From Nereocystis luetkeana (lineage: Eukaryota; Sar; Phaeophyceae; Laminariales; Laminariaceae): DNA of 64,000 nucleotides. The notes under the pieces were generated by a model. That model had not been told where the DNA came from. It ran no database searches and saw nothing but the letters and a program-made list of their open reading frames with translations. Both the position numbers and the translations under genes were made by a program. Below are positions 9,101-61,824 of this stretch, piece after piece (the stretch's first letter is position 1; each line of letters starts with the position of its first letter). The DNA is taken from NCBI GenBank assembly GCA_031213475.1, contig JARUPZ010000017.1, positions 2,795,920-2,859,919 of the forward strand. Reading direction: 5' to 3'.

Positions 9101-12100
9101 GGAGGGAGCTCCTGTACTGTCTGCGACGCGTTTACGAAAATAGAGAGGTGGGGCGGGTAGTCAAGGTCAACGCGCGCTACGGGTTGGTTGGGGTTGTGGG
9201 ACTAAGCTGAGGGGGTCAGAGAGGGCGTCTTGCGCCAATCGATTCGTTCTTAACCGAAAATGCATGGATTAACGGCGGGGCATTTCGCTCACCTGTCGAC
9301 AGTACCACAGGAACAGGCATACTCCGCCTCGACTACCAGGCACCTGTTATGTACTATAATGACTTCAGTGGTAGTCGAAGATCAACATTTTTTTTATTGC
9401 ATACCGAAACAAATGCGACTGGTCGGTTCGAAGTTCAAAAATAATACGTTGCACACACGCTACATGACACCATGGGCAATATACCAGAGGGCAATACCTA
9501 CATCTGGTTCTATGAGTGCACTTACAGCACTAGCACCGCTTCCCTCGAGGGGTGGAATAAACCGGGCAATTTTTGACATGTTTCACCGCAGCGTCGCGGG
9601 AGGGATGCGAAAATCACAGAGACGGAGGCAAAAAGGACACGATGAATACACACGACCGCATATCGCGTGGCGAGAGACACTACGTATTCGCTTCGCATAA
9701 AAGGCCAACACATCCCATTCCGATTGAATGGCATTGCATTATTGACAAAGCTTTGCAATACATTCATGTATACTTAATTGCCTTTCACTGCCTTTCACTG
9801 CGTTTCACTGCGTTTCACTGCGTTTCACTGCATTTCATCGCATTGCTTTGCACAAAAACTGCTTTAAAATCGCAATTCAGCGCAACATATTGCTATGCAC
9901 TGCACACCATTGCTACAAATGCCACAATAATGTATTTCAACGCCTACCCTTCCTATTCCATCTCATTGCAACATTTTGCGTAGAATAGCCTTCCGTTCAA
10001 CAGTTTACATAGCTAAAACAATACCGTACCTAGTATTGCACGTTACATCACGTTTTAATACATTGCATGACGATACACCCCCCGAGCCGGCGAACAAGGA
10101 TAGGTCAACCGCAACAAGGTGGAACAGAGAATACACCGGCGTGCGGGCACAGGAGGCTTTGTTCCTTGACTCAATCATAGGCACGAACCGATTCGGATGC
10201 CACCCGATCAGCAAGAAAACGCAACAATAGGTAAGCACAACATGAGCTCAACGAAGACTTGGCAGAGGAAGAGCCAGGCACTAAAAACAAAATCGTGCAA
10301 GCTAGTATACTCCTACTAGCGTCTACTTTACCCGACGGTTCAAGTCTGCATTTATAGCGCGTTGAGCCCCTACTGCCGGCTGTAATACATAGACCAACCG
10401 CCGTGGGACACGACGCGGCAGGGAAGCACGGCGGCAGCTGCAAAACCCACGCTGGGGTCGAAGGACACGCTTCTTACCATGCGAGGGTCCAGTACTCTGG
10501 GGTCGAAGGGGTCTTGGCTGACCGCCGAAGAGGGTGGGGTTGCAATCGCCGCCTGCAGTGCGAGAGCAGCAAGCAGCAGCAGCAGCAACGGCGGCGTCAG
10601 CAGCAGAAACGACGGTAGCAGGGGTGGTATCGTCAGCAACAGGGCCAGCGGAAGACGGGGAGCACAGCACAGCACAGCACAGCACAGCACAGCACAGCAC
10701 AGCACAGCACAGCACAGCACAGCACAGCACAGCACAGCACAGCACAGCACAGCACAGCACAGCACAGCACAGCACAGCACAGCACAGCACAGCACAGCAC
10801 AGCACAGCACAGCACAGCACAGCACAGCACAGCACAGCACAGCACAGCACAGCACAGCACAGCACAGCACAGCACAGCACAGCACAGCACAGCACAGCAC
10901 AGCACAGCACAGCACAGCACAGCACAGCACAGCACAGCACAGCACAGCACAGCACAGCACAGCACAGCACAGCACAGCACAGCACAGCACAGCACAGCAC
11001 AGCACAGCACAGCACAGCACAGCACAGCACAGCACAGCACAGCACAGCGCAGCACAGCACAGCACAGCACAGCACAGCACAGCAGACAGCAGAGGAGCCA
11101 AGCAGCAGATGCAGCCAAGCATCAAAAACAGCATTGCAGCAAAACAGCCTTACAAAAGAAAACACTGAAAAATAGAGAGCCCCTCTCTTCGCCGACGCCG
11201 CCGCCACCACCGCCTAGTCCCTGCCCGCCACCTCTCACTCACTGCCCACCGCCGCCTTCACCTTTTTACCTGGCGCACTTTTTGGTTTTTCAATCCTCCG
11301 CCGGATGAGTTGGCATCTAATAGCTCACCCCTTTACTACTGCACTGCTGTGCAGAAACACACGTTTTACTCAATAATTACCAGGGCTTTTCACGGGTCTG
11401 GTCAAACATCGCGGGTCAGGTCGGGTCGGGTCGGGTAAGGGTGACCCGACCCGACCCGTGAGAGTTTGAAACACCCCTGACCCGACTCCAACCCACACGC
11501 TACCCTACTCGACCCGTCGTATTTCGAAAGCCTCCTGACCCGACCCGCGGGTGGGGCCATGGCCCGTGAATAGCACTGTAAATTACAAGTTTTCTTCCGA
11601 AACCGGAGTGCAGTCCTAAAAGGGAACTAAGCCCTCCACACGTCAAGTGCTCCAACTGAACTTGTTGCTGCCGAGGCCACAGCTGCGCGACGAGCTGTTG
11701 CGACCCGCGGGACGCGAGAATGTGTCGACGCGCACCTTAGCCTCCAGAGCCTCGGTCGAAATAACGGACACAATGAAATCCATACCCTCCCCGCCGCCAC
11801 CACCACCACCACCACCCCCGCCGTCAACTATATCGCCCGACACGCCGGAGCGGATGACCTCGAACGTCGTGTGCATGGGGAGAGTGATGCCCTCCGCCAG
11901 CGCGGCGTCTGCCACGGTTTGGAGGCGTGTTCGAAGTGGGGACGGTCGAGGGAATGTCCCCGCTCTGCCTTCGTCGTCGGGTCGGTGGCGCGGGGTCCCA
12001 GCGGAGAGCGGCGACTTGTCCCCTGCAACGAAACAAAAGTGAAATGAAAGAGGGCATGTTGCTTCCCGGTACGAGCGCAAAAAGTAAATCGCGTTGGGGA

Positions 12101-14512: not shown

Positions 14513-16225
14513 GAGACAGAGAAAGCCCAAACGAAAAAAAACGCATCTGAAGGATATTTTAATAGATGATCTACCATCTACTGCTGTAGATCCTTGGTAG
14601 ATCGGTAGATTCTAGATCGTGGCCTGTCCGATGTGTGCATACATTTATTCACCTGCCCGACTCGCATGTCTCGCCACGTTGCGCCTTCCAGAGAGTGCGC
14701 CTGCGCAAGGGAATAGCGAAGCCAAGCAGCGAGCGGGCGGTCTGGGGTTTCAGTACATATTGGCCGTGGAAAGCGGGCAAAAGGTGCAGACAAAGGTGCA
14801 AACGCGCATCGTACGGGTTGGTGCACGTTTACAGCGGGCATCTATCTACAGTAGTACCACGAACTCTTTTACAACGCTCTAGTTAGGGACGTACGTTTAC
14901 AGCAGGCATCATGTATAGTTCCAAACAGTAACAGTAGCTTGCTGCCCCTATACAGCAGTATGGTATTGGAATAGCTTCGAACTTGGCAGCGAAAGCGGAC
15001 CAGACGAGGTCTAGAGAGTGCGGCCACTCCAGCCTGCTGCTGTCCACTAGCACGCGAACGTACAGTACGAGTCTGCCGGTTGAACGTACGCGAGCGAGGC
15101 AAACCTCCCTCCGCGCTTTCAACCAGGCATATCAGGTACCCTACCAGGACCAGGTACCTGGCACGTAGTATCTAAAGCTGCGGAGGGTATGTACATATTC
15201 TTGAGTGTCGAGATGAAACACCCGGATCAAGGAATGTGCCACAGCAGTAGATATAGTAGGTATGAAGGTAATGCAGCGCATAACCAGAACATAACGATAT
15301 CTACTGGTGGTGTGGGCTGCATGCATGGAGCTACTGATGATAACAGCAACCAGTGTGGCGCTACTACTGGTGCCTGTACTGATTGAACACACCATTATTA
15401 ATACTACACGTAGCATACGAATTAATAGTAGTGTGCAACAGCAGTGTACATCACGTATACCAGGTGCATGTTACTACTAATACTACTGGTTACTGACTGT
15501 GCTACACAAAGTGGTACCATCTACCAGGTTGAACGGACGAGTACTCTGTACGTATATGGCAAATACCCCCGCATTGGGCGATATGTGTTGGCACAGGCTC
15601 GACAGATAGATAGCAGACGCGAGCACAGGGAGACGGAACCAAAGCTTGCACACAAGACGAAAGGTGGTTCATCGCAAACCGTGCATACTTCGCGGCTGCA
15701 ACGACAAACACCAGCAGCAACGAACCTTCATGACAGCTTCCTCCTCGTCGTCGTCACCCTCTTCCGGGAAGGGAAGCCCCCCCCCCCCTTGTAGTGGGGT
15801 CTGCTGCTGCGGTTGCTGCTGGTCTTCTTCCTCTCTCCCAACTTGATCATCCTTGGACATGCTTGACATCACCACCGACTTTCTATCCCCTTGCTTGGTT
15901 TTAGTGAGCTCGAGCTATATACACTACTGATCAATCCCCCTTCGCTTCCTCGCTCCGTTTGCAGTCGAACCCTCTGTACCTTGCCAGCGAGCGGGAGCTG
16001 AAGGCTGGAGAGAAGCAATGCACCTCTCGAGAGAGAGGGTGCTGTTGGTTGACCAAGATGCTTGCTTGCTGCAACGGGAATGACTTGGGCAATCGGAATG
16101 ACTATCATTCCAGTTGCGGATATTTGATATTTGCTGGTTCTCGCCTTTTCTCGATTGGCGTTTTAAGAGTTCCCTGAACGCGGGGCACCGGGGATGATGG
16201 ACGGAGCCATGCCGATGACAGTAGT
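14513..16225. other. No gene recognised
   Basis: There are short palindromic TAGATC-type repeats near 14,570-14,620 and a 65-bp-spaced duplication of TTTACAGC(A/G)GGCATC at about 14,827 and 14,892. ORFs here are short and have no family resemblance. Confidence 0.5.
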
Positions 16226-16227
16226 TC

Positions 16228-17115
<888 letters not shown>

Positions 17116-17360
17116 AGCCGTTGTGTATACTTCGCCACATCAGCGAACAAATGCAGCGGCAGCTAGCGCAGCCTCCTGCGTCAACTTAACTGGGCCCGGC
17201 TTTCGAACCTAAGCTGGCGCGTATCGATATGTGCGTAGTCTACATAAATCCTGGGCTCGTAAGGGCTGCGAGCAATAATACCGATGTATATCGCACGTTG
17301 ATAATCTGCCCAAGATACGGCAGTCAGTTGGAGCAGAGGAATATTGTTTCCAGCGCAACC

Positions 17361-17892
17361 TGTGATAGAGCAGAGAGGTAACCTTGGCGTGTACTGGTAG
17401 TATGTAGACCAACCATCAGTAAATAAGATAGTTGTGTTTGCAGAAAGGATACGCAGTCCAGTATCTAAGTAGCCGAGGAGACAGAGATATATATATACGT
17501 ACGTACGTGCTATGTTCACACAGGGTTCACGGGGCGTTGCACTACATAGTATCTTCATACAGGCTTCACGGGGTGTTGCACTACGTAGTATGTTCATACG
17601 TCAGGCTTTACGGGATGTTGCACTATGGAAGTTAGTTGAGGGCGACATGTGTTCCCTTGCCAGTAGATTATAGCCGGTTGAAGACAGATGATACTTCTGT
17701 CTTCAAAAACCAGCTGCTTCCCCCCCCCTACTTGCTCACTCGTCTCTTGCCCCTTCGAGCAAGCCGCACATCAACAACGAAAGAGAACGTCAATACGAAC
17801 TGCGTCTGAGTTTGGCCAAGCACCGGCACCTGTGTCACACTTTTTTTGGGGATCATCATCTCTTGTTCCCTTGCCATCTCTCCCACATCACA
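17361..17892 (+). repeat. 5' LTR (532 bp)
   Basis: Direct repeat of 31,297-31,824 with shared blocks such as GTTCACGGGGCGTTGCACT and CTTCTGTCTTCAA. It contains three tandem CTTCACGGGGTGTTGCACTA-like units near 17,520-17,625. It is longer than the 3' copy mainly through an extra GCAGAGAGG-like stretch near the start. Confidence 0.9.
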
Positions 17893-17893
17893 A

Positions 17894-17911
17894 TTGGCGG
17901 CGTCTAACGGA
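17894..17911 (+). promoter_or_regulatory. Candidate primer-binding site
   Basis: TTGGCGGCGTCTAACGGA starts one base after the 5' LTR, where LTR elements carry sequence complementary to a tRNA 3' end. The leading TGG fits a CCA-ended tRNA. The specific tRNA was not identified. Confidence 0.6.
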
Positions 17912-18929: not shown

Positions 18930-19720
18930 TGGACACAGGTCCCGTGAGTGATGGAAGTTTTCGACGACACATACGTCAATTCTACTCGTCGTAATCGCAT
19001 TTTTCTTTCGGATTTAACGAAAGGCGCAGGTCCCTTGAGTGATGAATTTCTTGACGAAACGTACGTTAATTCTGCTCGTCTCATTTTTTTTTTCAGATTT
19101 GCCAAAACACGCAAGTCCCCCGGGTGATACACTTTTTGACGAAACATACGTAAATTCTCGTAAATTCTACTCGTCGTAATCGCATTTTTTTCGGGTTTAC
19201 CAAAATGCGCACGTCCCCCGAGTGATGAATTTGTTGACGAAACCTACGTAAATTCTGCTCGTCGTAATCGCATTTTTTTAGATTTGATAAAACGCGCCAA
19301 GTGTCCCGGGTGATGCACTTTTAGACGAAACATATGTAAATTCTACTCGCCGTAATCGCATTTTGTTTTCGGGTTTGCCAAAATGCGCAGGCCCCGTGAG
19401 TGATGAATTTGTTGGCGAAACATACGTAAATTCTACTCGTCGTAATCGCATTTTTTCAGATTTGCCAAAACATGCAAGTCCCCCCGGTGATGCACTTTTA
19501 GACGCAACATACGTACCAGGTAACTGCTAGTCGTCCTACAAGCACTTTTTTTTGCGGATTTGCCATAATGCGACGGTCCCTTGACTGATGAATATTTTGA
19601 CGAAACCTGCGCAAATTCTACTTGTCCTAATCGCATTTTTGTTAGAGATTTGCGAAAACGCGCAAGTCCCCCGGGGGATGCACTTTTCGACGAATCATAC
19701 TTCAATTCGAGCCGTGCAAA
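18930..19720 (+). repeat. 91-bp tandem array in retrotransposon leader
   Basis: About eight to nine imperfect units. The shared core TACTCGTCGTAATCGCAT recurs near 18,981, 19,168, 19,253, 19,343 and 19,433, with weaker matches near 19,073, 19,526 and 19,618. Spacing is 85-95 bp. Each unit also carries CGCGCAAGTCCC and GACGAAACATACGTAAATTC. The unit at 19,505 has an extra CCAGGTA. A more diverged continuation runs to about 19,900. Confidence 0.85.
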
Positions 19721-21765: not shown

Positions 21766-22948
21766 CTCGAACATCCCGACCCGGTGTACGTCATCATCCA
21801 GCTCTACCACATGCCCCCGGCCCGACAACAGCGGAACCTCCTCCCAGCACGAACAACGTCCACGACAGCGCAGTGAGGGCGACTATTCCTCCTCTTCGAC
21901 CGACGAGGGCTACAGTACGGAGAACAACAGGCGAATAACTGACTTTGATATTGCCCCGTTGTCTGTTTCTTTTGCGGCAACCAACCTTTTGGACACGCCG
22001 TCGCCTCCTCAGTACCAACCTGCCCCCCAAATCAGCGCCGCAATCTCTATTGCTCCACCTGCTGGCCAGTATCAGCCCCCTGCGCCACAACAGGTCTGCC
22101 CCCCCCCCCCAATTCCGCACCCACCGTCACACCGCTACCACCTCAGTATTCAGTGGCTCACTCCTCACTGCCCCACATTGTAGCCCCCGTTGCGGCCCTG
22201 CCCTCTCCGTATCACACGGCGCTACCGGCCCCCACCCCCCTCCCAAACAGCACGACCCCCATTACATCGGTACTCCCTCAACACCCAGTCACGCCCACTC
22301 CCATACCGGTCACACCCACTCCCACTCCGGTCCCTCCTGTCGCACCTGCAACTACGCCCCACCGCACTGCAGCTAGTACCCACGACTTTGATGTTAACCG
22401 CAAGTACGTCGACCTGGACTCTCGAAAGTTGGAGCTCATCGACCCACTCCCTTTTCCCGCGGGAACCGACGACTGTGTCGGAGTTCAACAACTCATAGCA
22501 AGCGCCAAACTTGTATTGGCGGGCATTTTCTCACGCTGTGACCATTCCCCGAATGGTACTCTAGACTCCCTGCGTTGGTAACCAGGATGGATCACTCCGC
22601 TCCACCGGTGTTTCCGGAAAGCAATAAAGACAGGCACCAACTTCCCAATGTCCCTCCTTATCAACACCTTTTTCAAACAGGTGCGCTACCATCTTCGGGA
22701 GAAGGACACTGCTGGACCGTCAGCCTTTCGCTTGCTACTACGTTTGCTGAGCACGCACTTCGACCACGGCGACCAAGGCAGTGCATTCGAGACGCTTCAG
22801 GCGTTCGGAGTGACCACAGGCACGGTGTATTCGATTTACTTGCGGGCTTGAAGAGAGCTGACATCGGTGGTGCAAGGCTCTGAAAAAAAATTCAAGCCTG
22901 GCGACACCATGGTGTTAGAGGTAGCGCGTACCAGTGTTAGCAAACAAT
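20735..22948 (+). pseudogene. gag, N-terminal and capsid part (broken)
   Basis: The first ATG at 20,735 opens an acidic, Pro/Thr-rich region. A frame change near 20,930 leads into a coiled-coil-like segment (VEDELSVPELQAWLADHD, then RLLQERQARERDEIDRTEKL). Another change near 21,460 gives RIKLLRLVAILRAFHASHDH. After a long Pro-rich spacer with a CAA-repeat Gln/Thr run (21,735-21,770) comes a capsid-like part from about 22,380: VQQLIASAKLVLAGIFSR, an in-frame TAA at 22,579, SLLINTFFKQVRYHLREKD, and a TGA at 22,849. The nested DNA transposon starts at 22,951 in the middle of this capsid part. Gag would coat the RNA genome in virus-like particles. Confidence 0.75.
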
Positions 22949-22950
22949 TA

Positions 22951-24156
22951 GGTGTGGGCGTGAGGTCCGTGTCGACCAGAAATCGGTGGCATGGTGAATA
23001 TTGTGACTTTTTTCCGAACGGAAGTACGAACAGACTGAATAATTTTCTGCAGTTCCGGACTGTCATGGGGCTCCAAAACAACTTGAATATAGTATACCGG
23101 AATGTCAGCATTATATCGCTTTTAACTCCTGATACGTCACGAGTTGGCTGTCCATAGTGTGCCCAGACGTATAAAAACATATGTTCTGAACAAATTCATG
23201 AGCCAGAATGTTTTTCCGTTTGATGCTGACCTCAAAAACAGCAACAGGTGTGATTTTTAGTGTTTTTCGGCACTAGGTACCCCCCTGTAGAGCGCATCGA
23301 CTGATACGAAGAATTGAGGCTACAGATAGCTAGTTCGTGGTATGCCGTACTCGGACAAACACAAAATCACTCCAATCGTACACTTGAGTAAAGAGTACCA
23401 CCCCGTAAAAAAAACGTGTTTTTTTATATACATAATACAATGGGAAACACGACACGACACAAGAAAAAAAACAAGGACCTAATCCTACAAGAAGAGGCTT
23501 TGAAAAAATAGACGATGAGTTCTTCGCCCGCACGGGGAAAACAACAGGAGAAATGGGGAGAGATAAGCGTGCCGACAACATAGCGGAGCGCCGCGACTAT
23601 CGTGCGTTGGAGCGACGTCATGGCGGTGCTGCCCGTGCACGCGACGAGGCTGAGGCCTAATATGCTGCTGAGACCGAAGCTCGCCAATCGGCCGAGAGTC
23701 TAGCCGAGGTGGGAAAATTGGCAAGGGAAACCGAGGAGCGGCTGCGACTTGACATGGCAGGAACATTATCCGAGGAGCGTCAACAGCGGCCGCACGCGGA
23801 GGCAGATACGCGTGCAGCACTAGCGGCGCTGGCAGCCGAGGAGGGGCGGAGGTGGGCAGAGGTGGCGAGGGTGGCTAGACTGTCGGAGGAGATGGATCGC
23901 CACCTTCCATCTCTTTCTCTTCCCACTGCTGCGCTATCTGCTGCTGCTGCTCATCCTACCTTTTCTATCCCATACGAAGGGTTTTCCTTGTTTTCTAATT
24001 CTCAAGCTTTTGGGCTTGAGAAAAAAATGATGACAGCTGCTGTCAATTTTCTTCGTTGTGTTTGGTCGAAAAAAACAAAATTCATCACTGCGCACAACGT
24101 TTAATGGACACCGATATTGCTGGTACCGGTTATAAAAGGGACCTCACGCACACACC
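22951..24156. mobile_element. TA-target DNA transposon nested in gag (1,206 bp)
   Basis: Termini GGTGTGGGCGTGAGGTCC and, at the far end, its near-perfect inverse (one mismatch in 18). TA is duplicated at 22,949-22,950 and 24,157-24,158, as for Tc1/mariner-like elements. Removing it and one TA rejoins the gag capsid sequence on both sides up to a frame slip. No transposase was recognised. On the plus strand about 23,550-24,104 encodes a Glu/Arg/Ala-rich coiled-coil-like peptide with one stop at about 23,659. Confidence 0.85.
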
Positions 24157-24158
24157 TA

Positions 24159-25153
24159 ACAGTTTCCAGCTTTGACTCCGGTATTGTACGCAGGTGAATT
24201 AATGATTGCGGCAGAGCCTTTCCCTTCGGTCACGGCCGTGTGGCAGGCTCATGAAGTGTACGCGATGAATAATACACCTGCCATAAATGGCGAAAAATAA
24301 TTTTTTTTTGCCTCCCCTGGAGGCCACGCGACGTTTTCGTCGTCCCCGCCGTCATCGGCTCCTGCTCAGCAGACGCGTTCGCGCAATCATCCCAACCAGA
24401 ATCACCAAGGCTCCCAACGCAACCCCATTGTCACGAACGTCTCCACGTCCCCAAACGCTGACCCTGACCCTTTCACTCTGGGTTACAACCATTGGTCCCT
24501 CGAACACTTCGATGAAGTGCACATGGTGTCTACCACGTTTTCAACCACTGACCCCCCTCTCTGGAGTCCGCTCCTAGGTGCTAATTTCGGAGCGACCGCT
24601 CTTCGCACATGGCGTGGTGTATGCCTCAACTGCGGCGGACAGGACCACAGGGTCAAAACTTGCCAGAGCCCCTTTATAAACAAGTCAGGTATTCTCAATC
24701 CCTGGCTCGGTCAACTCAACGACGGAGGCTACGCCTTTCAACAGTGGCAAAAACGTATGCTCTCATACCGTCGGGGACAATATGAACGCAATGCACAACG
24801 GAACTCGAACTCTTATTCTAAGCGTTCCACACTCGAGGGGACACAACTCTGCCGGCAATTCCAATACCAACCGCCGACACAACTCCCATTCTAAGAACGA
24901 GCGCTCCCATGGCAACTCCGGCCGTGCTACAGGCTCTCAGTGGACGAACTACTCTCCCAACAACCAACACCCTCGGGATAATTCGGCACCACAGCTCACT
25001 CCCCCCTCCCCTCAAGGACCTCTCTCATCTGCCCTCACAGTAACCGGTCCCACAACCCAGACCTCCACTACCCCAGCTATCATGCGCCTCGGTCCTTCAC
25101 AACACGGGGGTAATCAAAACTCCCGGCAACCGGGCACCTTCCGTACTAGCTGA
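24159..25153 (+). pseudogene. gag, C-terminal part with CCHC zinc knuckle
   Basis: Continues the interrupted capsid: ALTPVLYAGELMIAAEPFPS, then TAVWQAHEVYAMNNTPAING. A CCHC zinc knuckle, CLNCGGQDHRVKTC (24,622-24,663), is the nucleic-acid-binding motif of nucleocapsid. A frame change near 24,790 leads into an Asn/Ser/Gly-rich tail ending at TGA 25,151-25,153, the likely end of gag. Confidence 0.85.
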
Positions 25154-25886
25154 CCAGCCGATGGTGCAGAACCGCTCGCGACTTCACCAGCGGCACTACA
25201 CGCGACCGCGCCGGGTACTGGATCCTCGTCGGGCAGCGTATTTTCTCGGAGCCGCTGGCTCTACTTACTCTCCCGACCTCTCCTTCTCTTTTCTCCCCCC
25301 TTCTAACCTATCTTCAATATCAACGACTCGATCTAGGGATGGCTCCCTTGTTCACGCGGTTGGTTTGAAGTGTGGGCAGGAGGAGGTGGGCACACCGAGC
25401 ACTCCCTCAATGCTCCCCTCGGTGTCCCCAGTCGATGCGCGACGCCGCGCCTTGCCCAACATTGCCGAAATGTCCACGGGCCTTGCCAATCTTGTGGACG
25501 ACGCGACAACAACGGCCAACAGCGGTATCCACTCCCTCTCCGGCTCTGCTCCTCCCCCAGGGCCATCGACTCCCAACTCATATGCGTTCTCGACGAACGA
25601 TGTTATCGCCATACGTCAACCGGCGTCCGTCGATCCCGGACAGCACATACTTCGACCTCCGTTGGTTCTGCAGGATCTCCCGGACTCGTAGCTGCCCGCC
25701 TCGTGTTGACCACACCACTCTCCCTGGGCTCAAGGGACGGTTTTCCCGCGGACTCATCCGCGGAAGACTCGACCAAGTCACCAAGAATATGCCAGGAGCC
25801 ACCTGTACCGACACCCACCCCCCGGTCACGGACTACTACAGGTACCGCATGTTCTTCCGAGTTTCTCCCTCCCCCGCATACGTTAA
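25154..25886 (+). other. Pro/Ser-rich spacer between gag and NADAR region
   Basis: Open stretches exist in all three plus frames, but none resembles a known domain. Stops and frame slips make the original reading uncertain. It presumably encoded a low-complexity linker at the start of pol. Confidence 0.5.
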
Positions 25887-26777
25887 ATGCTGTTGGCAGG
25901 GACTCCCAGGGTGCTACGAGCGTCTCGCCGTCACGTACATCCTCCCGGGGCCTCGTCACTATCGACCTTACCCCACACGTTTTCGGGTAGCGAAGTCGTC
26001 TTACCCAGGCCTTCCCCGGCAACGTCCCAAACAACGCCCCCCTCTCCACCCCCCTCGACCCTGAGCCTCTCCCAAATTCTTTTTTTTTGGGATCATGCCT
26101 CGGTCTTTTCCCAGTGGTATCCTTCGACGCTCACCGTAGACAACGAGCACTACAAGTGTGCGGAATTGTATGTGGTGTCGGAAAAGGCCAAGCTTTTCGG
26201 CGACACCGCAACTCGCCGGAAGATCATGTCCTCTGCGAATCCCGCAAAACAAAAACGCCTCGGCCGCTCCGTCTCCAATTTTAACCAAGAGCTTTGGGTA
26301 CAGCATCGGTACGACATCGTTTTCAAGGGCAACCTCGCCAAGTTTTCGGCTCCACCTTTACTACAACAACTCGTAGACACCGGCGACAAGTTCCTCGCCG
26401 AAGCAAGTCCTTATGACCTCGTCTGGGGCATCGGCTTCAGGTGCGACGATAGGCGAGCCTTACAACCTACACTCTGGCCGGGACTCAACCTGTTGGGCGA
26501 CATCCCCATGAAGACCCGCCACCAGCTTGCCTCCCCCTCTCCACTCCCGCCCCCCCTCGGCGCCTCTCGCGTCTCACCCTCCGAAAATGGGATTCACGAG
26601 ATCAGCGCAATCGTTCCAGCATCTACACCGCACTCCACGCTGGACCACCTACTGCCCCCTTTCGTTCCTGAAGCCGCTCCTCCGCACGCATTGGTCTCTG
26701 CCATTTCGTCCGGAGCTTCTCTCCCTCCTGTGCTCCCCTCCCTCCTTGCCGAACACGGACCAGGCCTCTCGGTATAG
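25887..26777 (+). CDS. NADAR (YbiA-like) domain within retrotransposon pol
   Basis: This frame is open for 296 codons. From about 26,075 to 26,530 it carries a complete-looking NADAR domain. Visible blocks are FFWDHASVFSQWYPSTLTVD, NEHYKCAELYVVSEKAKLF, RLGRSVSNFNQELWVQHRYD, IVFKGNLAKFSAPPLLQQLV, DTGDKFLAEASPYDLVWGIG and WPGLNLLGDIPMKTRHQL. The order E-H-Y, W-x-x-x-R, G-N-x-A-K-F, T-G-D, E-x-S-P-Y-D-x-x-W-G-x-G and N-L-L-G is that of the family. NADAR proteins are known to act on ADP-ribosyl or related nucleotide adducts, including removal of ADP-ribose from guanine bases. A one-base slip near 26,770 separates this frame from the protease that follows, so it was once part of the same polyprotein. 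No stop lies within the domain. Confidence 0.85.
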   Translation: MLLAGTPRVLRASRRHVHPPGASSLSTLPHTFSGSEVVLPRPSPATSQTTPPSPPPSTLSLSQILFFWDHASVFSQWYPSTLTVDNEHYKCAELYVVSEKAKLFGDTATRRKIMSSANPAKQKRLGRSVSNFNQELWVQHRYDIVFKGNLAKFSAPPLLQQLVDTGDKFLAEASPYDLVWGIGFRCDDRRALQPTLWPGLNLLGDIPMKTRHQLASPSPLPPPLGASRVSPSENGIHEISAIVPASTPHSTLDHLLPPFVPEAAPPHALVSAISSGASLPPVLPSLLAEHGPGLSV

Positions 26778-27208
26778 TTACCGCCGACAACGCCTCTTTC
26801 CCGACCAGGATCAAAGTACACAGTGGACCCTCCGCATCCAACCGCTACGGCCTAGTAGCTCTCTTGGATACCGGCTCCCCCCAGACCTTCATCTCCGCTG
26901 ATGCTTGGGCCTGCATGAAGCACAGCAACGCCACGTCGGACACCTGTGAACAACACGCTCCCCCTCGTTCCTGGGGCGGTTTTGGTAAATCCGAGCCGCT
27001 CACCTCGATTTCCGTCCGACTCAGCATCCAGTTATTGCACAACAGCACTCCCTCTGCTGAACTCGCCGTATGGGCATGCATCGTGCCACATGGGACTATG
27101 CAACATCCCGTTCTACTGGGACGCGACAGCTGGATGCGGTTCGAACACGCACGTACACCACCCCGCCTCGCCTCCCTTCGCGACCACTCTTTGGCGAGCT
27201 CTCCCTAG
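26770..27208 (+). pseudogene. Retropepsin-type aspartic protease of the retrotransposon
   Basis: The frame reads GIVTADNASFPTRIKVH, then LVALLDTGSPQTFIS. DTGSPQTFIS is the D-[ST]-G active-site loop of retroviral-type aspartic proteases. Further on, HPVLLGRDSWMRF matches the LLG-RD/W region near the family's C-terminal end. It follows the NADAR region after a single frame slip and would process the polyprotein. Confidence 0.85.
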
Positions 27209-29160
27209 CCACCCCTTAGAAGGATGGCCTCTTCACTTTCGTTCACGACAACTGTCCTTCGCAAGACACCATATACCTCGAGTTTGCCGGCGTTCACGCA
27301 GTCTCACTTTCGGCCACGCCGTCTCTCGTTTCGGTTAATTTGGTGCGTTCCTCCGGCATTCCGGCACCCACCGGCCACTACCTCGTTGACATGCTTCCCC
27401 GCGACAGTCTTTCCTCCGGAACAGAAATCTTCGTCGCCAACGGCTACCAGAATATCCCGCTCTCGGGATTCACTGATCTTGAACCAGGCGACCGTTTGGG
27501 GACCTCCTCTTCTCCCCTCATACAAATGCCGGTCTCAGCCCTGCAAGTTCTCCCCACGACGTCACCTCCAGCCTCCGCTGTTACCGACGTCCACGCCCTG
27601 CACGACAACATCACCGTACATGACGACGGTACACCTCCGGCTGACACCCCCAAGACCCCTTGCAACAAAGTCTTGGAACGCCTGACTGTTGACCAACGAA
27701 CAAGCTTTCTCCGCGTCTGGGACCAACTCCCGCTGCACCTTCGTGACATCTCCTTCGACCTCCGCGGCTCTGGTTGGTCCCCTTCGGTCATCACAGCGTT
27801 GAGATAAGTTCTTTGCGAGTTCCCCGATGTTTTCTTCACGTCCAAAACCGACTTCGGCTCGTGCTCCCTTATTCCACTCAAGATTTCTATCCCCCCGGAT
27901 AGCGCCCCCGTATCTTCGCGCCCTTACCGCATCAACCACATCCTCGCCAATAAGGCCGACGCTGTGCTCGACCGATATCTGGCTGCCGGTCTGATCCAAC
28001 ACTCCACTTCCCCGTACGCCAGCCCTATGGTCGCCATTCCCAAGAAAGACGGCAACGTTTCAATAACCGTGAACTACGAAAAGCTTAACGCCATCAGCTC
28101 CCTGGGCCAACTACCCATCCCATGCGTTGACGAGGTCCTCGACTCCCTCGGAAAAGGCCGCATCTTCTCCTTGTTCGATCTAGTGTCTCCGTTCCACCAT
28201 ACCACCATCGACAAGGACACTATACCGCTGACTGCCTTCTCCATGCCGACCCGACTCTTCGAGTGGCTCGTCATACCCTCAAGGAAGCAGCGGCGCGCCT
28301 GGATTGTTCGTCAAGGTCATCAACGAGGTCATCAAAGACCTTGGCCGTGTAGCGGCCTACCTCGACGACGTCATAGGTTTCGACCCCTACCCCGCGGCTC
28401 ACGTCGCCAACATCCGCTCCCTTTTTGAACACCTTCGGAAACACAATCTCAAACTTTCTCCTTCCAAAGCCAAGCTTGGCGCTACCAGCGCCGACTTCTT
28501 GGGACACACTATTTCCTCTTCCGGCGTTAGCCCTAATGCCGATAAGGTTGCCGCACCAACCCAGATGCCCATGCCTACGAACACCAAGCAGGTGCGCTCA
28601 CTTCCTGGCGGCATCGAATACTACTGGAAACTCCTGAAGAACCTTTCCACTCGGCTCCGTCCCATTAACGCCCTGCTAAAACAAGGCGTTAAGGTAAGTT
28701 CGCTTTCACCTCGGAAATGGAAACCATCGTCCGCCAGATCCTTCACGAAATCACTACTCCCCCGATCTTAGTATACCCGGACTGGGACGCCGTTGCCGAC
28801 AGCTCCTGACCTTTTCGCCTCTACTGCGACGCCGGCATCGACGGTGTTGGCGCGACTCCTGAACAAAAACAACCCGACGGCTCCGTCCGTCCCATCGTCT
28901 TTATCAGCCGCACCACCCTCGACAACGAACGATCCTGGACCCCTCTTGACCTCGAAGCCGGCAGCATCGCTTGGGCCATCAAACGTCTCAGCGGCCACCT
29001 CTGGTCCACCAAGTGCCACATCTACTCTGACCACAAGGCGCTCGAGAGCATCACTAAGGTCGGCGAACACAACGCTCGCGTCCAACGCAGGCTGGAAATC
29101 CTCTCCGCTTCCTCCTACACCCGGAATACCGGAGAGGATCAGCCAATGGCAATAGCGATT
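27209..29160 (+). pseudogene. Reverse transcriptase and RNase H of the retrotransposon
   Basis: A connector with LPLHLRDISFDLRG leads to a TAA at 27,805, then RT: RPYRINHILANKADAVLDRY, LIQHSTSPYASPMVAIPKKD, FSLFDLVSPFHHTTIDKD (first catalytic Asp). After a frameshift near 28,285 come AAYLDDVIGFDPYP (the paired Asp residues), LKLSPSKAKLGATSADFLGH and the thumb. A further frame change near 28,800 gives RNase H: LYCDAGIDGVGATPEQK, FISRTTLDNERSWTPLDLEA, WAIKRLSGHLW and IYSDHKALE. The catalytic acids are kept even though the frame is broken. Confidence 0.9.
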
Positions 29161-29959
29161 TTCTCTCTCGACTCCCACAATCAGCCACCGACCTCGACCG
29201 CACCGGATCCAACCGCCTCACCACTCCCGACACCGTCGGCATCTACCTTACCCAAGCCTGCGGTTTTACTCCGATCGACCCCATTCACCCCGGGCATCGG
29301 TTTGGGTGGGCTCGTCCCGCCTTCGCCCGTTCCCTGCGAGACCATCCCGCCACTCCCTTGCACCAACGATGACTTCGGCGATTTCCGCCACCTCGGACCA
29401 CGTATGGACACCTCGGACTTAGTGCATATCCCCTACTCTATCGTGGCGTCTGCCGCCGTCGAATATACCGCCGCTGCACCGCCTCGCAGCCCTCCCGCCG
29501 GCCACCACCTTGCTCAAGAATTCGCCATTGGACCGCCTCTCAGCCCTCCCGCTGGCCCCCGCTTTGCCCAAGACCTCACCGTCGACTCGCTTCGCAATAA
29601 TTTCGTGGGTCACCTCTCTATCCTCGACCCCATCGCCGAATCGCCTTCCAGGTCCGAGAAAGCCGCCGTGATCGCTGGCGCTCCTGCTGGTGTGGCTTTT
29701 AGCCCACCCTTTGTCTCTCCATCGCCCACCTTGGGCGTCTCACTTTCGGCCACTCTTCGTCCCTCGTTGGACCTAACTTCTTCTCGGACCCGTCGCCGTT
29801 CCGCCTCTGCCGCTGGGACTCCCTTCACTCCGACGGGCTACGGATTTGGCCGTCGAACGTCAACTAGGGCAGTCTCAAGACCGCCCCCAGCTCACCGCCG
29901 TCCGCCTACCGTCAACTAGGGCAGTCTCAAGACCGCCCCCAACTCACCGCCGTCCACCT
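29161..29959 (+). other. Pro-rich segment where the integrase core is missing
   Basis: After RNase H the usual GNSDFLSRLP-like tail is visible, but no HHCC zinc-binding or DDE core follows. Instead this stretch contains Pro/Ser/Ala-rich low-complexity coding-like sequence, with two tandem 51-bp units at about 29,864-29,970. Confidence 0.6.
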
Positions 29960-30481
29960 AGCCCTTCTTGGGAACACGAACGAGACCTACAGCTCCACCG
30001 ACCCCACATCCTCCGCTATTGGTCGGGCATCCCTTCACAGCACCGCCAGACCAACCGTTTATACCGCCAGATGCGCATCGGGGCCGCTCACCGCGAACTA
30101 TCGCGGTCCCGGGGTGAAATATTCCTCGCCCCCGGGTACAGCCTCGTACAATGCACCCTTTGGCTTCACCTCTTCAGCTCTTCACCTCTACCCGCAGGGG
30201 CGCACCTCTGGTACAAGCCCCGCGATGGTCTCTGGTGGTTGGGCAAGCTTGTCCCCCGCGCCTCGACCGAAACCTCCTCCACTGACTCCTACATCGTCCG
30301 CTACCTAGACGACCCGGGCCCGATCAAGAATACTCTACTTCCGTCCCTTTACACCATTTCACGGAGCGCGACCCAAGGATCCTGGTGCCTTCAGCGTCAT
30401 CAGGCCGGGGGACTAGCACGCGGTGTACTACGTAATGCCAATGCAACCCCCCAACCACCACTCATCCGCTCGACCAGTTAA
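29960..30481 (+). pseudogene. Integrase C-terminal module
   Basis: Reads AGAHLWYKPRDGLWWLGKLV, then DSYIVRYLDDPGPIKNTLL and QGSWCLQRHQ. This small beta-barrel-like module normally follows the integrase catalytic core and binds DNA. The frame ends at TAA 30,479-30,481. Without the core this element could not make its own integrase. Confidence 0.7.
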
Positions 30482-31296: not shown

Positions 31297-31824
31297 TGTG
31301 ATAGAGTACCTTGGCTTATAGTATATGAACCAACCATCAGTAAGTATATAGACCAACCATCAGTAAATAAGATAGTTGTGTTTGCAGAAAGGATACGCAG
31401 TCTAGTATCTAAGTAGCCGAGGAGACAGATAGGTATACGTACGTGCTATGTTCATACAGGGTTCACGGGGCGTTGCACTGCATAGTATCTTCATACAGGC
31501 TTCACGGGGTGTTGCACCACGTAGTGTGTTCATACGTCAGGCTTTTCGGGATGTTGCACTATGGAAGTTGAGGGCGACATGTGTTCCCTTGCCAGTGGAT
31601 TATAGCCGGTTGAAGACAGATGATACTTCTGTTTTCAATAACCAGCTGCCTCCCCCCCCCTATTTGCTCACTCGTCTGTTGCCCCTTGGAGCAAGCCGCA
31701 CATCAATCATAAAAGAGAACGTCGATACGAACTGCGTCTGAGTTTGACCAAGCACAGACACCTGCGCCACACTTTTTATGTGGATCATCATCTCTTGTTC
31801 CCTTACCATCTGTCCCACATCACA
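31297..31824 (+). repeat. 3' LTR (528 bp)
   Basis: Begins TGTGATAGAG and ends CCCACATCACA. It pairs with 17,361-17,892. It has an extra CCAACCATCAGTAAGTATAT duplication near its start. AACC follows directly and matches the base quartet before the 5' LTR. Confidence 0.9.
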
Positions 31825-31828
31825 AACC

Positions 31829-57699: not shown

Positions 57700-59120
57700 G
57701 CGATGAGTGATATCCCGACACCGGGCGAGGCCCCCGGGGCCGCTGCTGAGGCCCCAGTGGCCGGCCCCCGGACCACGGCGACTAGCTCTGGAGGCTCGGC
57801 CGCCGAAATTCACCCCGCTGGCGCTAGACCGGAATTCGTACGTTCCGTCGACTTGGTCCAGTGGCTGGGGCAAGTGGAAGCCAATTTGGGCTCGTTCGTG
57901 ACGAGATGCAGGCAACCCCGGCAAAAACAGACGCTTCCATCGCGGGCATTCAAGACTCGGTATCGACTTGCGCGGCGCTGTGCGCCCACCTGGACATCGT
58001 GCTTTTGCAAATCGTGGCGAACCAGGCCGCCCAAGGGGACGCTTCCGTCGACAACCTTGACGCGCGGGGGCGGCTGCTGCAGAAGTCGCAGCTCGTCGAC
58101 GAGGCTGCCCTTTGGAGAAAGTCGGGCCCACAACGGCACTGGATTCTCCGGGGCCGTATCCCCCATATTCTCGGCGATTCTCAGGCAGACATCCAAGCCT
58201 TCGTGGGGGAGTCCGTCAACGTAACGGCACGGGTGGCCACCCAGCTCCACTCGGTCAGCGGTTTCGATGTGACTCAGTTAGGTCCCCACACGGGCGGGGC
58301 CCTCGACGGTTGCCTTATAGTCGCCGACCGCCTCCAGCTCGTGCGTTCGGCGCTCAACGGGGTTCTGTCCGTTGGGCTGTCGCCGTCAATAGACACTGAT
58401 CGGCCGTGCCTGGTGCGGCTGGCTCCTCTCAGCTCAGCCTTTACAACGGCGTCCGCCGACCTGCGTACTCACATTCTATGCAATTACGCCAACCTGTCGA
58501 GCGCCAAGACGAGGAGCGTGATGTGCGAGATCGTCCATCACGACCTGCGGCTATGGGTGAACGAGCTCATGCGTTTCGCTCTGACCAGCCAACCGCCTGC
58601 AGTGCTTACCCCCCCGGACGCGGTGTGTGCTGTGCCCCCGATACCGGCCTTCGGCCGGACGTCCGCGTTTTACCGGGGCGGGGGGAACTCCCGAAGATTG
58701 TCGAGGAAACATCTCGGGGCCGCGTCGCGGGGGACGGGCATTCAAAACGAAAGGCCTCTGCCGGGCCTTCCTCTCCCGGCGCCGGGCACGCCAGGAAGAA
58801 GAGCACTCAGCCATGCAATATGTTTGTCACCACGAGGAGGCGCAGGTGGCGTGATTGCATCTACGTGCATGAATCTCCCCCCGCGGATTTGTGGTCTCCC
58901 GCCGCTCTCAGCGTTGGGGGTGGCGGCATCTCGGCGTCGGCCGGGGCCGGGTCACGTGCTTTGGCCCTGCGCACGGGCAACCCTCCTAGGGCTGCGGGTG
59001 GCGGCGGGGCTTCTGGGAACGGTGGTTCCAGCTCCGGATGAGGACATGGGCCCTTCCTTTCGGTTGGGCCAACCTCACCTGTGGGGACATCGGCCGTCCA
59101 TACCGCTGTCGGGGCGGTAG
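57700..59120 (+). pseudogene. gag-like protein of the plus-strand element
   Basis: Starts MSDIPTPGEAPGAAAEAPVA near 57,702. A frame slip near 57,895 leads into a long frame with GIQDSVSTCAALCAHLDIVL, RGRIPHILGDSQADIQAFVG, FDVTQLGPHTGGALDGCLIV and HHDLRLWVNELMRFALTSQP. This part is probably a capsid-like helical region. A Gly/Ser-rich tail follows in another frame. No zinc knuckle was seen. Confidence 0.65.
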
Positions 59121-60310
59121 CGGCGCACACTGCACGCGGAGAGGCACCGGAGCAGGCGGCTAAGCGCCGTGCCGTGAGCGGGCTGCGCGGGCGGGCGTTG
59201 GATGCTCTAGTTGGTGACGGCGGCGTTGGGCGGGAGCGCGTCTCCGTGTCTCCGGGTTCCGTCTCCTTCGGGGACGGAGGTAAATTGGGAGTGTCTGCGC
59301 CGGTGTTACCTGGTGTTCCATCGTGTACTGTGCATCGGCGTGTTGCGTTCGAGTCGTGGCTTCCTGCGGAGGCTAGTGTAGCACAGTCCATGTCGCGGGT
59401 AGACTCTGCGAAGCTCGATCGGGTCGCTGGCGTAGGTACTTTCCTCTTGCGTTGGTGTCAGGATAGCATTGCATCCTTTGTGGCGACCGTCGGGACGTCT
59501 AGTCTTGCTCCGCACATATGGCCGGATTCCGTACGCCACTGGTTCGGGACCATCAAGCAGTTCCCAGCGATTACTCAACTGCTTCGGGTGTTGTCTTCGG
59601 GCTCGCCGGTATGCGTTGCCCGTGGGGGGGATTTGAATACTGAGCTTGACTACGGCAATCACCCTAGCTCGCTCCCGCATGAGGGTGCTATTCTTGAGAA
59701 GGTTTGTGCGAACGAGGATTTTGGGCGTGCCCTAGTGCTTGATTTGGGTTCCGCTGCTGAGATCCGTGGGCTGCGAATTTCACCCTTGGCTGTCGTTCTG
59801 AAACCCAAATTTCGTATCGTTCATAATCTCACCTTTGCACGCGCGGGCGGATGAACCGGTGTTAATAACGACACATTTTTTTCTTCAGCTCCGACTTGCG
59901 AGCTAGGCAGCGTGCTTCGCGATGTGCTCATGCGGGTTTTATTCTTGCGTCAGGCACACGGTAGGAACGCTTGGATAGTCTTGTGTCGGGTTGACGTCAA
60001 AGACGCTTTCGGCAGGTTCCGGTGGACCCCGCCGGGGCGCCCGTCTTTGGGTATATAGTCGGCGGTCACGTGGTTGTGGACTTGCGTGTGCAGTTCGGGT
60101 GGCGTAACCGCCCCGGGTTCTGGGGTTTGGTTGCGTCGGCGCTCTCACACTCGCTCCACGTTTCAAACTACAGTCGTGTCCCGCCAAGGGGAGGCTGCCG
60201 TCACGCACGTCGTAGTCGCCCCGCCGCGGGGCGGGCCGGTCGTGCCGCTCCCGGGAGATTGCCAGCTCGTGCCTAGCACGGGCGGTAATACCGGTGGCTG
60301 TTTTTTTCGA
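59121..60310 (+). pseudogene. Reverse transcriptase (5' part) of the plus-strand element
   Basis: The frame to 59,854 ends with DFGRALVLDLGSAAEIRGLR and ISPLAVVLKPKFRIVHNLTF, the start of DIRS-type RT. After a TGA and frame changes come VDVKDAFRQVPVDPAGAPVF-type sequence near 59,990-60,050 with the first catalytic Asp, and GYIVGGHVVVDLRVQFGWRN. Confidence 0.75.
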
Positions 60311-60773
60311 ACGGTATTACGTCGACGAGGGCATCCTCGTTGAGCTGCAATGGTGGCCGGACGGCCACCGTTGCCAGCGAGCGGTGCAGTCGCTCGCATC
60401 GGACCCGCGGAGCGCCCGTCAGCTATGGGTGACTGCATTTAGTTGCGTGGGGACATTGAAGCCGCCGTGGAGTGGGTGCGGCGGTGTCGTAGGGGGTAAG
60501 GAGCCCCGATCTGTTGCGTTGACGATCCTCGGGGCGTTGGAATTATCCTCGGGTTGGCATTCTGACGCGAACCACGTGCGGGGAGTTTTTAACGTCGCCG
60601 CTGATGGTATCTCAAGCTGGGATCGCGACCTTGTCCTCCGTGACTTGCGCTCCGTTCGCCCTGATGTTCCGTGGCAGACTCAGGACTTCAAATCTTGGGG
60701 GAGGCCGGGACGTCCCTCTGTACTTCGGTGTTGGTCTCGAGCTCTTGCGGAACGCAGTTACAGTCTCGCCTGA
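60294..60773 (+). pseudogene. RT catalytic box and RNase H of the plus-strand element
   Basis: The 159-codon frame begins VFFERYYVDEGILVELQWWP. The usual YVDD is YVDE here, so one catalytic Asp has become Glu. It continues to RNase H with VALTILGALELSSGWHSDAN and HVRGVFNVAADGISSWDRD. The normal sequence between RT and RNase H is shortened. Confidence 0.75.
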
Positions 60774-60893
60774 ACAGACTTATCTGGGGCATTTTGGCGC
60801 CTGGGTAGACTTCCGGGTACGTTGTGTGGAGTGCCGGGTTTTTTCCAGCACGGTCGGGATGACATGGCCAACGTTTGGCGCTTATTTGAGTAG

Positions 60894-61824
60894 GTGGCGT
60901 GCGCGTTTGCCTCCAAGAAAATGCGGTCGGCTACCATCGAGAGTCATTTGTCTGCGATCAAATACTTTCACCTTATTTCGCGCGGTTTCGAGCTCGACAC
61001 TATCCACCTCGTCATCGCTAGCGACCTCAAAAGGCGCTGCTCGTTCGCACGCCGACGCGGGAAACCTAGCAACCGTGCGTCGGCCAATTTCATGGTTGAT
61101 GTTGCTGGCGGGCGAGCCTCTGATAACATCGTGGCGCGCTGGGGGTCGGTTTCTGTGGCTTTCTCTGTGTGCAACGTTTTGTTTCTGGAAACGAGGTCGC
61201 GAATTCACCAGTCATTTTGTTTGCGGCAGGCCGACGTAGCCTTCTTTTGGGGTGATTCCCAGCTGGCGGAAGCACTGTGGTCGACCGATGACCGTGCTAA
61301 GGTCCGCTTTCGCGGGTCAAAGGGGGATCAGTTTTGCGAAAGGGGACTGTTCTGACGCGTGCGCGGAAGGGTCTTCGAACGCCCGTGGGCGCCGGGGGGG
61401 ACGCCGTCGATCTTATTATCGAGTTGATGTCTTGTTACCTGTTATTTCCCTCGTCGACCCCTCTGGTTGCGCTCGGTATACTGGTAACGGCAGAGGGGCC
61501 ATGTGAACCTAGCAACAAGCGACGGCTGCCCTGCGCGCGGTGGTTGCATTGGCGGGCGTGCGGGCGGAGGATTACGCCCTGCATTCCCTGAGGATTGGAG
61601 ACGCAACTCACCTGTCGGCCGGGGCGGCTACACCGGAGGTCTTGCGGCGTGAGGGTCGGTGGGCGTCCGACGCGTACAAGGCGTACGTACGTAGTCATGG
61701 GGAGGACTCCAGTTGGGTGGCAAGCGTGATGGCCCAAGAGAGCACGGGTAGCGGAATCCAGCCGGGGCAGGGTACGGAGTGGGGGCAAGTGAGTAAACTC
61801 CCCGGGCTGGGTAAGAAGCGGTAA
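60894..61824 (+). pseudogene. Tyrosine recombinase of the plus-strand element
   Basis: The first part (60,894-61,355) holds ATIESHLSAIKYFHLISRGF, the N-terminal helical domain, and KVRFRGSKGDQFCERG. After a frame change the second part (to 61,824) holds DYALHSLRIGDATHLSAGAA and REGRWASDAYKAYVRSHG: the H-x-L-R, GRW and Tyr elements of the catalytic set. The HSLRIG box is intact. A break near 61,350-61,540 separates the halves. Confidence 0.85.

Follow-up and report, generated by a model that had tools for sequence, protein, structure and literature searches.

A NADAR domain in Pol of Ty3/gypsy retrotransposons of Nereocystis luetkeana

Ty3/gypsy LTR retrotransposons in the genome of the brown alga Nereocystis luetkeana carry a NADAR domain ahead of the aspartic protease, and the layout common to intact copies of three families is gag, a stop codon and Pol in one frame, with NADAR in Pol. 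The best explanation for a NADAR domain in this position, to which we give a probability of about one half, is that it removes ADP-ribose from the element's own nucleic acid inside the particle. A sequence-only reading that preceded this analysis was unsure whether such a fusion had been described; elements of this kind are in fact already in print, in a 2025 report on Ectocarpus in which a Gypsy lineage (e.g. Gypsy-12_Ec32) has NADAR at the N-terminus of Pol (PMC12477816). As far as the available text of that report goes, the Ectocarpus elements are like ours in being Ty3/gypsy, in the place of NADAR in Pol, in its YbiA type and in having closest named outside relatives that are mostly bacterial; they come from another genome, and our families A-D are likened to Gypsy-12_Ec32 by description, not by sequence. 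New here are the analyses of selection and of the active site, the stop-codon layout, and a distant Gypsy Pol (P0031) that has both NADAR and a macrodomain.

The NADAR domain and its element

The window is the whole stretch of 64,000 nucleotides that was analyzed (contig JARUPZ010000017.1, 2795920-2859919). An ORF on its forward strand (25887-26777, 296 residues) matched the Pfam NADAR profile PF08719 with an E-value of 6.2e-41 and a score of 140.8 bits (cut-off 35.1), over positions 1-162 of the 163 in the profile. The match spans ORF residues 66-214, or nucleotides 26082-26528, and a chance match to NADAR is excluded for this ORF; the identity proposed from the letters alone is thus borne out over nearly the whole profile. 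The only PDB sequence match at an E-value of 0.01 was 8bau, the NADAR protein of Phytophthora nicotianae in complex with ADP-ribose (E 2.7e-16). Foldseek, run with an AlphaFold2 model of 26061-26540 (pLDDT 95, pTM 0.88), returned 8bau (E 5.9e-10, TM 0.86) and Escherichia coli YbiA (2b3w; E 7.1e-07, TM 0.78), with TM values normalized to the query, and no other PDB entry at E ≤0.001. The domain is therefore predicted by the model to adopt the YbiA-like fold of the NADAR superfamily.

The surrounding element is a Ty3/gypsy LTR retrotransposon, and this copy is dead: its gag is split by an insertion, its frames have shifted and its integrase has been lost to a deletion. Its 5′ LTR (532 bp, 17361-17892) and 3′ LTR (528 bp, 31297-31824), both on the forward strand, have TG...CA ends and are flanked on their outer sides by a 4-bp target duplication, AACC (17357-17360 and 31825-31828). 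A scan for LTRs limited to 22-34 kb gave none; the 5′ LTR sits at 17.4 kb. The two LTRs differ by 31 mismatches in 510 aligned bases, plus 40 gap columns (Jukes-Cantor distance 0.063). A putative primer-binding site (ATTGGCGGCG..., 17893-17910, forward strand) is assigned by its position directly after the 5′ LTR only. Between the 5′ LTR and gag lies a tandem array of units of about 90 bases (18958-19716).

To map the interior we used two frames from the same genome, L025 for gag and L012 for pol; all matched parts lie on the forward strand. The first recognized part of gag (22393-22947) is 44% identical to residues 167-352 of the gag frame (E 9e-41); homology halts at residue 352 and restarts at 352 beyond a 1.2-kb insertion (22948-24159), whose terminal inverted repeats of about 20 bp were read by eye from the sequence. 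The insertion is DNA-transposon-like and resembles a non-autonomous DNA transposon. The second part of gag (24160-25147; 53% and 39% identity, E 1e-62) holds a CCHC zinc knuckle (CLNCGGQDHRVKTC, 24622-24663) and is followed by the gag-end stop TGA at 25151-25153 (GTFRTS-stop-PADG), a putative readthrough site. Downstream, an N-terminal Pol spacer with broken frames (25296-25807) matches pol residues 38-197 at 37-46%, and NADAR is followed by the aspartic protease (26771-27148; 66% to pol residues 617-743), with DTG at 26867-26875 and the motif ALLDTGSPQTFIS in ORF 26672-27208. The NADAR and protease stretches join at base 26771 with their frames one base apart. The reverse transcriptase (RT; 27808-28687, 78-79% identity) is split over two frames, with an RVT_1 match of 2.1e-13 in ORF 28232-28771 and one of 0.014, below the cut-off, in ORF 27808-28428; RNase H (PF17917, 2.4e-21) occupies 28810-29106. 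At an internal-deletion site (29857-29965), pol residues 1596-2243, which include the integrase (1775-1948 in L012), have no counterpart. The C-terminal Pol part (29966-30448, 65% to pol residues 2244-2412) gave no Pfam match. A C-terminal chromodomain on Pol, looked for as a trait of the Ectocarpus lineage, gave no significant Pfam or PDB match, and a chromodomain-like stretch was seen by eye only. The sequence-only reading had described an LTR retrotransposon with identifiable ends, a NADAR domain between zinc knuckle and protease, and a single-base slip between NADAR and protease; all of these stand.

The 2,424-residue L012 frame has NADAR at 368-517, the protease motif at 646, RT at 1049-1207, RNase H at 1301-1405, the integrase zinc domain (H2C2) at 1775-1832 and rve at 1849-1948, the last at 24.6 bits, under its cut-off of 32.6. 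The Ty3/gypsy order protease-RT-RNase H-integrase is thus seen through L012; the LTRs come from the window copy, in which the integrase is lost.

Families in the genome and the stop codon between gag and Pol

In the assembly (465 Mb, 1,987 contigs), a first look gave 778 NADAR candidates. The best 150 were scored, and every one exceeded the Pfam cut-off; this number is a lower bound, since the window's own copy scores below them. Of the 150, 48 sit in open frames longer than 2,000 residues, one of these with a TGA inside the match. The control of the candidate search matched in 3 of 14 named genomes. By identity, 42 fetched loci and the window were sorted into four families: A (the window and L031-L042), B (17 of the 18 fetched long-frame copies L011-L028, with L006, L009 and L010), C (L001-L005, L007, L008, L029 and L030) and D (L015 alone). 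Three places are present twice (L001 = L029, L010 = L024, L033 = the window), and three further rows (L031, L032 and L034) come from small contigs that do not differ from the window over the matched part. Family A has at least 41 match rows at 86-100% DNA identity, the window included (40 of 224 candidates scored). NADAR stands at the N-terminus of Pol, before the protease, in L012, and P0002, a protein 84% identical, carries NADAR and protease in one open frame. Neither of the outcomes that the sequence-only reading had set against itself, no NADAR hit and absence of the domain from all relatives, was found: the profile matches and many relatives carry NADAR.

At the end of gag, 36 of the 39 rows compared (all but L005, L015 and L035) show the motif GTFR-x-(G)N/S-stop. 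The stop is kept in all 36, as TGA in 35 and as TAA in one (L038); L011 has a second stop directly after it. In 12 of the 36 (11 places, in families A, B and C), the gag frame continues immediately past the stop as open Pol sequence through NADAR, which in these intact copies begins 308-366 codons downstream of the stop. The spacer of the other 24 is shifted or broken, with no open in-frame run from stop to NADAR. From the layout, NADAR is probably made by readthrough of the gag stop, at the level of Pol; the conserved stop between gag and Pol therefore predicts a Pol-level dosage of the domain. The Candida element Tca2 is likewise known to have a UGA separating gag from pol (PMC2194720). The sequence-only reading had the ancestor make one gag-pol chain including NADAR. 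The gag frame, though, ends at the conserved TGA, so that a single chain would need readthrough.

Selection and the ADP-ribose pocket

Six of the eight other non-identical family A copies fetched (L035-L042) have a stop or frameshift within NADAR, so the open NADAR frame of the window is not in itself evidence of selection. Within families, pooled NG86 estimates of dN/dS, leaving out rows with stops and identical rows, were 0.48 (A, n=3), 0.46 (B, n=16) and 0.44 (C, n=8) for NADAR, 0.35 (A, n=7), 0.87 (B, n=12) and 0.32 (C, n=3) for the protease, and 0.28 for RT in family B (n=17). Between families A and B the values were 0.22-0.24 for NADAR, 0.15-0.16 for the protease and 0.08 for RT, with synonymous sites near saturation and several pairs without an estimate. 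Judged by these ratios, NADAR is under purifying selection in the three testable families, A-C, and is less constrained than RT (0.24 against 0.08 between A and B). Its identity exceeds that of the spacer before it and the linker after it in all six family pairs (A-B, 0.50 against 0.35 and 0.37; A-C, 0.47 against 0.22 and 0.26), and is below that of the protease and of RT in all six (L029 serving for C in the RT comparison).

We then considered the residues named as ADP-ribose contacts in the available text of PMC11543638 (8bau numbering). K50, R79, W89, R93, D130 and W133 are kept in all 30 distinct rows of the genome, E43 and E125 in 29 and K75 in 26; Tyr84 is replaced by Phe in 29, and D86 varies. 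The window (row A_L034, identical letters) has E43, K50, R79, W89, R93, E125, D130 and W133. Across representatives of the four families, 9 of 11 named side-chain contacts are the same, compared with 50 of 151 columns overall (hypergeometric P 8.6e-4), with K75 and D86 differing between families. Most of the ADP-ribose contacts are thus kept in the four families.

These data bear on two other explanations. That NADAR is a passenger, a captured gene retained by chance, would agree with the dead window copy and the broken frames of family A; set against the occurrence of NADAR in four families, with a dN/dS far below 1 in three of them and a selectively conserved pocket, this explanation was already disfavored and is very improbable. 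Alternatively, the domain might be a structural or binding module that recruits ADP-ribosylated chromatin or proteins and has no need of catalysis. NADAR does bind ADP-ribose, and the Ectocarpus lineage is reported to have a putative chromatin reader at the opposite end of Pol (PMC12477816), which would suit such a role; however, a pure binder need not keep the catalytic E43 and E125 that nearly all rows retain, and we regard this alternative as a long shot.

The position of E125 also separates subfamilies, being Glu in the YbiA subfamily, Asp in BC4488 and His in phage (PMC11543638). By this residue, the NADARs of the window and its sister copies are of the YbiA type and not DarT1-linked. With the DarT1-NADAR toxin-antitoxin system the window domain appears to share the fold and most pocket residues, whereas the DarT1-linked proteins have Asp where it has Glu; hydrolysis of guanine ADP-ribose is known for that system and by analogy predicted for the window NADAR. 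No DarT match or ADP-ribosyltransferase partner was found at an E-value of 1 in the 20 window ORFs scanned. The YbiA-type Glu would also fit an action on small NAD-derived signals or metabolites, such as cyclic ADP-ribose variants or toxic riboflavin intermediates, which would spare the host or silence an alarm and leave the element's nucleic acid alone. Riboflavin intermediates are substrates for the N-glycosidase activity of bacterial and plant NADARs (PMC11543638), and small ADP-ribose derivatives have been proposed as targets of phage NADARs (PMC9503650). Fusion to Pol, the expected packaging and a low stoichiometry would nevertheless better suit a substrate inside the particle, and we consider a small-molecule target rather unlikely.

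Relatives and a second ADP-ribose fold

A protein search gave 28 matches, of which three have a named source, two bacteria (Allokutzneria and Saprospiraceae) and one fungus (Pyrenophora). In a NADAR tree whose bootstrap had not settled, the starred clades were family A with near relatives, B with P0017, and C and D with P0027, none of them resolved from bacterial-like rows. A single clade of all N. luetkeana NADARs, as expected from a single capture, was not rejected (p-AU 0.44), nor did the tree show it. A swap of NADAR between families was suspected, because identity between A and B is 85% for RT and only 48-50% for NADAR; we do not claim one, since divergence is also strong in the neighboring gag, spacer and linker, and an A+B NADAR clade was not rejected (p-AU 0.43).

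A search with the Pol frame returned two long proteins. One of these, P0031 (1,560 residues, from a 6,105-base ENA contig), is a Gypsy Pol that runs from NADAR through a protease motif, RT and RNase H to the integrase, after which comes a MACROD-like macrodomain (Macro 1.9e-19; MACROD1 1.2e-29); it combines two unrelated ADP-ribose folds in one polyprotein. Because this macrodomain departs from MACROD1 in loops that we take to be catalytic, it may bind rather than cleave. The RT of P0031 is 32-36% identical to those of the four families (about 34% to family B), and its NADAR 43-51% (about 51% to family B), with 46% to the bacterial-like P0013. Among families A-D NADAR diverges faster than RT, and for this reason a separate capture in P0031 seems more likely than common descent. 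No relative of P0031 was found in IMG/VR, and among long proteins its macrodomain gave only two weak PARP14-like matches. P0030 (1,650 residues) was considered as another fusion and set aside: it has no RT, and shows SLOG-like (below cut-off) and SAP matches beside NADAR.

Comparable arrangements are known elsewhere. Tx1 LINEs of Crassostrea gigas have a NADAR-like ORF1 (PMC12477816); they too are retroelements with NADAR, but are non-LTR and, as reported there, have a divergent domain. Nidoviruses, hepe-like viruses and picornaviruses have NADAR in their polyproteins (PMC9503650). In these, too, an RNA-templated replicon carries the domain within its replicase polyprotein, but they are RNA viruses and not reverse-transcribing; the available text of PMC9503650 makes no mention of retrotransposons, retroelements or Metaviridae. 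Fish epsilon-like endogenous retroviruses are reverse-transcribing and have an ADP-ribose domain, which differs in being a macrodomain encoded as additional ORFs (Basta et al. 2009, cited in PMC4977317). In a literature set with few papers from subscription journals, no further report of a NADAR-bearing retrotransposon was found in titles and the starts of abstracts, and the fish retroviruses (PMC4977317) were the only case found of a macrodomain in Gypsy or LTR retrotransposons.

Proposed function

These observations provide the basis for a model of how the element would use NADAR. In Pol, the spacer would come first and then a NADAR equipped for catalysis; protease, RT, RNase H and integrase would follow, with a C-terminal extension at the end. 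Ribosomes would read through the gag stop at a low rate, so that NADAR is made at the level of Pol and packaged in the virus-like particle, where the protease would release it or leave it near RT. There it would hydrolyze ADP-ribose from nucleobases (N-glycosidic adducts of guanine) on the element's RNA or newly made cDNA, and host ADP-ribosylation that would block reverse transcription would thereby be undone. A role against ADP-ribosylation fits the intact active site, and the Phytophthora NADAR and several others strip ADP-ribose from guanine in vitro (PMC11543638, PMC11125620).

The authors of the Ectocarpus report proposed, by analogy with RNA viruses, a role for NADAR in the processing of RNA ends, or of modified RNA intermediates, during retrotransposition (PMC12477816). 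No RNA-end activity specific to NADAR appears in the available text of PMC9503650, PMC11543638 or PMC11125620, and the proposal overlaps with de-ADP-ribosylation of the element's nucleic acid; as a separate explanation we judge it quite unlikely. If NADAR is active inside the particle, retroelements would be fighting ADP-ribosylation of nucleic acid, which would imply a host defense of that kind. The joining of NADAR and macrodomain in the Pol of P0031 points toward the same counter-ADP-ribosylation role. On a wider view, eukaryotic reverse-transcribing elements may repeatedly have captured ADP-ribose hydrolase folds as counter-defense, the Gypsy families of this genome and P0031 having taken NADAR independently to reverse host ADP-ribosylation of retroelement RNA or cDNA; we offer this tentatively, as a possible but doubtful generalization. 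We know of no nucleic-acid ADP-ribosylation defense in algae. The many copies with open frames make the function of NADAR testable.

Other features of the window

A cluster of long open frames lies on the forward strand at 57828-61355, four of which were scanned and gave no Pfam match above the cut-off. Very long simple repeats, judged from translations, occupy 16225-17140 (three-base units) and 10523-11150 (five-base units). On the minus strand, a short fragment at 41461-41627 matches the NADAR-Gypsy pol in its protease (E 2e-06).
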